64,000 nucleotides of DNA from an uncultured Pelagibacteraceae bacterium (GTDB lineage: Bacteria; Pseudomonadota; Alphaproteobacteria; Pelagibacterales; AG-422-B15), in NCBI GenBank assembly GCA_902523535.1, contig CABYZQ010000001.1:117047-181046 (forward strand). The letters are read 5' to 3'. Position 1 is the stretch's first letter. Every line of letters begins with the position of its first letter. Positions 21,736 through 23,675 of this stretch are shown here, piece after piece. The translations under genes and the position numbers were made by a program. The notes under the pieces were generated by a model. It made no database searches. It was not told the origin of the DNA and saw nothing but the letters and a program-made list of their open reading frames with translations.

Positions 21736-22440
21736 TTATTTTGCATTAAGTCCTCTTGAGAAAATGACATTAAAATGTTCTTTAAATCTATACATTCGGG
21801 CATTCTCGTCATTCACTTGGCTTGTGAAAATATTATAGGCTATTACAGCTGGTATAGCTGCCAGAAGTCCTAAAGCTGTGGCAAAGAGAGCTTCGGCAAT
21901 TCCTGGTGCCACTACTGCTAAGGATGTATTTCTTGATATTGCAATTGACTGAAAAGAATTCATTATCCCCCAAACTGTTCCAAATAGACCAATAAAAGGT
22001 GTTGTTGCACCTATAGTTGCGAGATAGCTAAAGTATAGTGAGAGCTTTTCATTTTGATAATCAATTGCGGCTTCCATAATTCGATTAATTCTATCAGTAA
22101 TGCTGTCGATATTTTTTTTAGTATCTTTATTAGATTTTTCAATTTCATCTACTGCCTCAAGAAAAACATACTTTATAGGACTCTCTGAAAGATGGTGGGT
22201 GGTTGATGCAATTTCTTTGATGGAACGTCCTGACCAAAATTCTTCCTCAAATTGTTTGCTGATTTTTTTTAGAGACCTAAAAAGTCGTATTTTATGAATA
22301 ATTATTGTCCATGAGAATATTGATGCAGCAAATAATATTAGAATTACTAATTTCACTACTAAGTCAGCCCTAAAGAATAGAGACATTAAGGTGAACTCAT
22401 CGTTTATTTGACTTGTACTAATCAGAGCTTCGTTTTCCAT
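21736..22440 (-). CDS. tolQ: Tol-Pal system protein TolQ (MotA/TolQ/ExbB channel)
   Basis: 234 residues with three membrane segments (about 28-46, 140-165, 175-200). The conserved ExbB/TolQ block includes [23 protein letters not shown] and [20 protein letters not shown]. It forms the proton channel with TolR. No ybgC thioesterase gene precedes it; instead an unrelated nuclease-like gene lies 39 nt upstream. Confidence 0.97.
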
Positions 22441-22479
22441 AGTATTATTTTAAAACTAAAAATTGTCTTAAATAGGGCA

Positions 22480-22863
22480 TCAAGTGTCAGTCTTCTTGCT
22501 TTCAAGTAAGATTTTGTATAGCTCCATAAAGTCATCTAACCTTAAAACGCACAATGAATTACCAGTTGTTTCCCTATTTCTTCTTGTAATTACCACAGGA
22601 AATGATTCTGATTTAGATGTTTCAATGTTTTCTTCCACTTGCTTAATTGACTCATGGATTTTAAATTTTTCAGTTCTCTTTGCCTCGACGTAAATATGGG
22701 GAGTATTTTTTAAATCACTTCCACCTGACGATTTTATTGCTCCACCTCCAGACAGAGGCATCCGCTGCACAAGATCGTCTCCACCAAAAACTTTTTCATT
22801 AAAATATTTGGCTAACTCCCTTTCATATCCATCACCTTTTCTTTTTGGAGAGCTGCCTGACAT
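22480..22863 (-). CDS. Putative PD-(D/E)XK endonuclease, Holliday-junction-resolvase-like
   Basis: 127 residues, no signal peptide. The layout fits a small PD-(D/E)XK nuclease: a helix with Glu14/Glu16 (KGDGYERELAKYF), then Asp50 in SGGSDLKN, then Glu60-x-Lys62 in YVEAKR, and a conserved-looking VVITRRNRE strand. This resembles phage-encoded Hjc-like resolvases and related endonucleases. It sits between yebC and tolQ, the position where alphaproteobacteria commonly carry ruvC-ruvA-ruvB. None of those genes is in the window. A role in processing recombination junctions is an inference; a generic phage-derived DNase is the alternative. Confidence 0.7.
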   Translation of the reverse strand: MSGSSPKRKGDGYERELAKYFNEKVFGGDDLVQRMPLSGGGAIKSSGGSDLKNTPHIYVEAKRTEKFKIHESIKQVEENIETSKSESFPVVITRRNRETTGNSLCVLRLDDFMELYKILLESKKTDT

Positions 22864-22931
22864 AAAAACGAATCAAAATTATCAATTCATTAAAGACTAA
22901 TTAATATATTTGGATTTTAAAAGTTAATTAA

Positions 22932-23675
22932 TCAAGCGATTCTGCTTAATTCTTCATCACTTGCCTCAAAATTTGAGAAGATCTGCTGTACATCTTCATC
23001 GCTATCAAGCTCGTTTATTAAATTTATAAGTGATTTTAACTTATCGCCATCAACTTTTACTAATACATCTGGCCTCCATTGAAAACCAGATGAAACTGGC
23101 TCACCATATTTAGCAGCTAATAAATCGTAAAACTTTGACATTGTATCGGGCAAGCATACCGCTTCATATTCATCCTCTTCTACGAAACAATCTTCTGCAC
23201 CATTTTCAATTGAAAAGTTAAAGAACTCATCCTCCGTTGCAACATCCTTATTAAATTTCAAAAAACCAAAATGTTTAAATGCATGTGAAACTGAACCTGT
23301 TTCACCTAATGATCCGCCAAACTTTTGAAATGATGATCTTACATTAGATGCCGTTCTGTTTCTATTGTCAGTAAGTGCCTCAACAATTATAGATGTACCT
23401 GCAGGACCAAATCCTTCATATCTCATTTGGTCATAATTAACAGTATCTTTATCCAAAGACTTTTTAATAGCACGATCAATATTCTCTTTTGGAAAACTTG
23501 ATGCTTTTGCAAGTTGAATTGCTGATCTTAATCTGGCGTTTTGATCAGGATCTGGGGAACCTAACTTTGCTGCAACAGTTATTTCTTTAGATAACTTAGA
23601 AAATAGTCCTGCTCTTTTTTTGTCTTGCGCACCTTTTCGGTATTGTATATTTTTAAACTTAGAGTGTCCCGCCAT
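22932..23675 (-). CDS. yebC: YebC/PmpR-family protein (transcriptional regulator or translation factor)
   Basis: 247 residues. It begins MAGHSKFKNIQYRKGAQD, close to the YebC family signature, and contains NRTASNVRSSFQKFGGSLGETGSV and YEGFGPAGTSIIVEALTDN. Members were described as DNA-binding regulators; recent work ties some to relief of ribosome stalling at difficult proline-containing sequences. It directly abuts the phosphoesterase gene upstream (no gap). In this class it usually precedes ruvC, which is absent here. Confidence 0.96.
   Translation of the reverse strand: MAGHSKFKNIQYRKGAQDKKRAGLFSKLSKEITVAAKLGSPDPDQNARLRSAIQLAKASSFPKENIDRAIKKSLDKDTVNYDQMRYEGFGPAGTSIIVEALTDNRNRTASNVRSSFQKFGGSLGETGSVSHAFKHFGFLKFNKDVATEDEFFNFSIENGAEDCFVEEDEYEAVCLPDTMSKFYDLLAAKYGEPVSSGFQWRPDVLVKVDGDKLKSLINLINELDSDEDVQQIFSNFEASDEELSRIA

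Follow-up and report, generated by a model that had tools for sequence, protein, structure and literature searches.

A phage-type nuclease gene between yebC and tolQ

The window, that is, the whole 64,000-nucleotide stretch of DNA analysed here, derives from a genome of the AG-422-B15 group of SAR11 (Pelagibacterales), whose assembly is 84% complete and spread over 25 contigs. On its minus strand, an intact open reading frame with an ATG start (22480..22863) encodes a 127-aa phage-type PD-(D/E)XK nuclease of the PDDEXK_15/PHROG 244 type, a predicted Holliday-junction resolvase. It is preceded by yebC (22932..23675, minus strand; YebC/PmpR family), the marker of the ancestral ruvC slot, and followed by tolQ (21736..22440, minus strand), the first gene of tolQ-tolR-tolA-tolB-pal, and the three belong to a colinear series of housekeeping genes. 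The minus-strand spacers measure 68 bp on the yebC side (22864..22931), leaving no room for a ruvC, ruvA or ruvB remnant of any size, and 39 bp on the tolQ side (22441..22479). The nuclease gene is the sole occupant of the interval, and an earlier reading made from sequence alone, which had described a lone 127-residue gene at this position, is confirmed by the open reading frame map.

The frame is not a chance one, since it recurs at 80–100% identity in 29 of 36 same-genus genomes. The seven genomes without it are incomplete drafts, and the two misses that were checked (G002 and G004) reflect missing assembly, yebC being absent from both as well. All 42 named genome contigs bearing the nuclease were labelled SAR11/Pelagibacteraceae, several of them AG-422-B15, and the order yebC-nuclease-tolQ was retained in all 42 loci wherever the flank was readable. 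The dN/dS values of the nuclease (0.03–0.13) lie in the same range as those of yebC; the gene is conserved in place within the genus and is under purifying selection like that on yebC.

The protein itself is a member of a known phage family. A Pfam scan matched residues 7–121 to PF24608 (PDDEXK_15, phage putative PDDEXK endonuclease) at 31 bits against a cut-off of 27 (E 2.8e-7), and PHROG 244 covered residues 1–118 at E 4.8e-20, with a weaker match to PHROG 2002 (E 6.8e-4). Both PHROGs carry the label Holliday junction resolvase, although such names are annotations, with no biochemistry behind their use here. The same scan gave no match to RuvC (PF02075), RusA (PF05866) or any RecU family, and the archaeal Hjc profile (PF01870) remained below its cut-off (13.8 against 21.1 bits). 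PHROG 244 is also called RusA-like, yet the members tested have the PD-(D/E)XK domain (PF24608) and no RusA domain, so that this label is misleading.

Across 42 aligned bacterial and viral homologues, the active-site residues Glu14, Asp50, Glu60 and Lys62 never vary, and neither do Arg34 and Ser38. The PD-(D/E)XK signature, comprising an invariant D...(D/E)xK and a glutamate in helix 1, is satisfied. The motif proposed earlier (Glu14/16, Asp50, Glu60-x-Lys62) holds and reads Glu60-Ala-Lys62, with Glu16 less strictly conserved (≥90% of the 42 homologues).

A PDB sequence search with the nuclease returned nothing significant (Hjc 4tkd at E 0.8), and a fold comparison was therefore needed. The AF2 model (pLDDT 85, pTM 0.78; low confidence in loop residues 39–44) displays the order helix-strand-strand-helix-strand-strand-helix. 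Archaeal Hjc/Hje structures occupied Foldseek ranks 1–15, with a weak best E of 0.04, and VIA ranks 1–8, with Z up to 6.8 over 89 residues at 3.4 Å, a value below the range that this tool calls safe and middling as a fold score. RecU ranked under Hjc in VIA with a weak match (Z about 4), and restriction, splicing and cap-snatching nucleases also matched more weakly. The fold is accordingly predicted to be closest to that of archaeal Hjc/Hje, with modest scores. The earlier description of the protein as Hjc-like held by fold and failed by sequence, its family being PF24608/PHROG 244; a best structural match to an unrelated nuclease without junction specificity, which would have counted against that reading, was not obtained.

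Absence of RuvABC from sampled SAR11 genomes

Profile searches found no RuvC (PF02075) in the source genome or in any of the 59 relatives searched, 31 of which are at least 90% complete: neither the 36 same-genus genomes (one 99% complete) nor the 23 sister-family genomes (many closed) yielded a match, and true RuvB was likewise missing from all 59. Matches to RuvB_N (PF05496) in nearly every genome were rejected as RuvB because they scored below 32 bits and fell in frames sized like ClpX, HslU, DnaX and Lon. Of 289 genomes sampled from the class, 256 exceeded the cut-off of a full-length ruvB model, and the three SAR11 genomes in that sample gave nothing near it. RuvA was absent from the 16 SAR11 genomes searched, weak matches in two SAR11 genomes (18 bits) being taken as noise, while small control genomes of other families gave both RuvA and RuvC matches. 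RusA (PF05866) was found in none of the 59 relatives. All but one draft among the SAR11 genomes checked encoded a full-length RecG, nearly always with a score of at least about 600 bits.

Because the source assembly is only 84% complete, its own RuvABC absences rest on these relatives. The whole RuvABC system, and not RuvC alone, is gone from the entire order as sampled, and intact ruvCAB elsewhere, which would have refuted a replacement, was detected neither in the genome nor in its relatives, including the 99%-complete congener and the closed sister-family genomes. On the proposed reading, the SAR11 lineage lost ruvA, ruvB and the canonical ruvC, the order of events being inferred. A YebC tree joined the two SAR11 families (96/82) and left the other families unresolved; it is too weak to decide between one and several RuvABC losses, or whether the MOC1-like gene described below came first in SAR11.

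Occupants of the slot beside yebC and their phage relatives

RuvB-positive alphaproteobacteria (L182, L196) retain the canonical order yebC-ruvC-ruvA-ruvB, in agreement with the arrangement that the sequence-only reading had given as common in the class. In the sister family (f2), which we take to be Pelagibacteraceae proper on the basis of kinship and closed 1.2–1.5 Mb genomes, the yebC-tolQ interval holds a different protein of about 164 aa. This protein falls short of the Pfam RuvC model, in some cases only narrowly. Its match to PHROG 1770 (‘Holliday junction resolvase’) ranges from 9e-33 to 5e-37, and its nearest solved structure is chloroplast MOC1 (2e-14 with a single sequence, 5e-20 with a profile). 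Some members of the family (L040–L042) keep ybgC ahead of tolQ. Among solved structures, plant chloroplast MOC1 resembles the RuvC-fold slot protein of L040–L049 more closely than bacterial RuvC does.

The yebC flank was also read in other RuvB-less genomes of the class, including families f119, f51, f32, f25 and f142, in whose examined genomes RuvA and RuvC were absent as well. Family f119 carries a MOC1-like protein (PHROG 1770 at 7.7e-22) together with ybgC. Family f51 encodes a D14-like, 168-aa PDDEXK_15 protein (PF24608 at 2.7e-21) that is 45% identical to proteins of Pseudomonas phage PA5oct and related phages; one of these proteins is annotated as D14 protein/putative resolvase. In f51 (L191, L193), a tilS-like gene rather than tolQ directly follows the resolvase, and tol-pal is not found where it usually lies. 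Families f32, f25 and f142 share a 97–108-aa protein of PHROG 2002; that of f142 is 66–83% identical to marine viral proteins, some of which adjoin a terminase-like gene, and a model of a phage PHROG 2002 protein likewise has Hjc as its first fold match (E 0.008). Profile comparison shows the three PD-(D/E)XK groups to be related, with their catalytic residues aligned.

A few RuvB-less genomes (f150, f108 and endosymbionts) have no resolvase beside yebC. Two RuvB- and RuvC-less genomes that are 92–99% complete, G255 (L200) and G268 (L201), show no resolvase-like gene at this position. In two near-complete genomes, ruvC follows yebC and is itself followed by other genes, with no RuvB over the cut-off (L181 in G165, L183 in G176); either ruvAB were not assembled or ruvC was retained alone, both being possible.

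Scanning viral contigs identified 108 relatives of the nuclease, those listed being 44–57% identical. Among isolates, gp22 of Roseobacter phage CRP-810 is 48% identical, is annotated as a resolvase and adjoins a primase/polymerase gene. In the nuclease tree, the AG-422-B15 sequences form one clade nested among marine viral sequences, and those of f51 group in a clade of their own, closest to a marine virus (67%). The two clades stand apart among viral sequences, and we therefore count two acquisitions; a single host origin of the two nucleases (f1 and f51) is not favoured, since they lie far from each other among those sequences. Kinship with phage is thus shown, whereas the phage-to-host direction of transfer is inferred from this nesting under midpoint rooting. 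The MOC1-like and PHROG 2002 types represent at least two further acquisitions, bringing the inferred number at this one site to at least four. For the MOC1-like genes, a single origin shared by Pelagibacteraceae and f119 could not be told apart from two (p-AU 0.27).

The replacement of RuvC by a phage-type resolvase, possibly extending to all of RuvABC, had been proposed earlier as an unusual case at one locus. The data support replacement at the locus and loss of the whole system, the function being inferred. The supposed rarity did not hold, since in sister lineages the same slot contains other phage-type resolvases, unrelated or only distantly related to this one.

Proposed function and alternative explanations

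We consider it likely that the nuclease is a phage-derived, RuvAB-independent Holliday-junction resolvase in the old slot of ruvC, although junction cleavage is inferred and no biochemical data support it. In this model, a small PD-(D/E)XK endonuclease acquired from a tailed phage, and inferred to act as a dimer, would resolve four-way DNA junctions without RuvAB. The junction would be moved by RecG, a partnership that is likewise inferred, or by spontaneous (thermal) branch migration, and the enzyme would nick two opposing strands using metal ions held by Asp50, Glu60 and Lys62, with Glu14 assisting. Its gene occupies the place once held by ruvC, after yebC and before tol-pal, and in sister lineages this place has been filled by other phage-type resolvases: a MOC1-like RuvC-fold protein in Pelagibacteraceae, a D14-like PDDEXK_15 protein in one family (beside yebC, tolQ not adjacent) and PHROG 2002 proteins in three families. 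The separate acquisitions at one site, at least four in number, point to a RuvAB-independent resolvase, probably partnered by RecG. There is a precedent in E. coli, where RusA substitutes for RuvABC when RecG is present (PMC5055574).

A bolder reading, towards which the evidence tilts without securing it, treats the yebC-adjacent site of RuvABC-less streamlined alphaproteobacteria as a resolvase socket. Under this reading, RuvAB was lost and phage-type resolvases of different families (Hjc-like, D14-like, PHROG 2002 and MOC1-like) took the place of RuvC in situ on at least four occasions, and the whole SAR11 order would carry out its very frequent recombination through a single-protein phage-type resolvase and RecG.

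Of the alternatives, the one that survives best, though we regard it as unlikely, is a domesticated phage nuclease with another role, such as restriction, anti-phage defence or end processing, that came to lie in the former ruvC slot by chance. PD-(D/E)XK folds have many functions and include many proteins that are not resolvases, the weaker fold matches comprise restriction, splicing and cap-snatching nucleases, and no activity data exist for this nuclease; to our knowledge, there are no biochemical data on any PDDEXK_15 protein. Against this explanation, sister families have different proteins in the slot. Each of these belongs to a family called Holliday junction resolvase, and one can be aligned with the solved chloroplast MOC1. 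Moreover, these slot proteins occur only in genomes without RuvABC, and the nuclease is kept across congeners under purifying selection, unlike accessory defence genes.

If junctions were resolved by a different enzyme, such as YqgF/RuvX or a resolvase not yet known, the nuclease would be redundant or dedicated to other branched intermediates. YqgF lay outside the searches made, and viral resolvases are often promiscuous (PMC3864405). This explanation nevertheless appears very improbable: no RuvC or RusA was found in the 59 relatives, E. coli genetics indicates that such junctions require a canonical resolvase (PMC5055574) and a conserved gene occupies the ruvC position. An artefact, in which ruvCAB went unassembled or escaped detection through divergence and the nuclease is merely additional, could appeal to the incomplete, fragmented source assembly and is all but ruled out by the closed relatives, the absence of RuvC and true RuvB from all same-genus and sister-family genomes and of RuvA from those searched, the RuvA and RuvC matches in control genomes of similar size and the strong RecG scores.

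RecU is known to stand in for RuvC in Firmicutes, and the neighbourhood yebC-ruvABC-tol has also been described previously (PMC3403352). A 2025 study of SAR11 recombination, whose main text never uses ‘ruv’, reported missing RecBCD, RecF and MutSL (PMC12374537). In the open-access literature searched, supplements excluded, we found neither RuvABC loss in SAR11 nor these replacements described. Within that literature, what is new is the repeated in-situ replacement of RuvC by phage-type genes together with RuvABC loss across SAR11, non-orthologous replacement of RuvC being itself known from RecU. SAR11 are the most abundant marine heterotrophs and recombine very freely; an order-wide absence of RuvABC, compensated by phage-type resolvases at its site, bears directly on how their crossovers are finished. 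The loci also amount to a natural experiment in which a single enzyme activity was replaced independently, time after time, at the same site. They open the question of what else, apart from RuvC, a recombination system requires, and they make testable candidates of three or four phage resolvase families whose function is inferred.

RecU of Firmicutes and Mollicutes resembles the window nuclease in that it is a resolvase of PD-(D/E)XK type and takes over from RuvC in bacteria (PMC3403352), but it occurs with RuvAB, from a gene distant from ruvAB. The window nuclease, by contrast, is encoded in the ruvC slot itself and in the absence of RuvAB; the fold match to RecU is also the weaker one. The RusA and RecG pathway of E. 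coli, with its prophage-type gene, is similar in that a phage-type resolvase replaces RuvABC with RecG (PMC5055574); RusA, however, belongs to another family and is normally silent and dispensable, whereas the window nuclease is fixed and the only candidate found. Archaeal Hjc/Hje (PF01870) share the order KGx..ER, R-x-P-x-SG, D and E-x-K and provide the best fold match, but the window nuclease falls under their Pfam cut-off and belongs to a bacterial and phage lineage. Chloroplast MOC1 gains free-living bacterial counterparts, as the Pelagibacteraceae slot protein aligns to NtMOC1 over nearly its full length; this RuvC/RNase-H-type fold (PHROG 1770) is unrelated to the window nuclease, and the plant proteins are organelle-targeted. 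The phage genes of PHROG 244/PF24608, such as that for CRP-810 gp22, share the family and active-site residues of the window nuclease, which has about 50% identity to marine viral proteins; unlike them, its gene is fixed in the chromosome and surrounded by housekeeping genes. The few bacterial contigs outside SAR11 that carry the nuclease (L172, L173, L174 and L175) resemble prophage or viral DNA, and in several of them primase/polymerase-like and HTH genes lie upstream of it.
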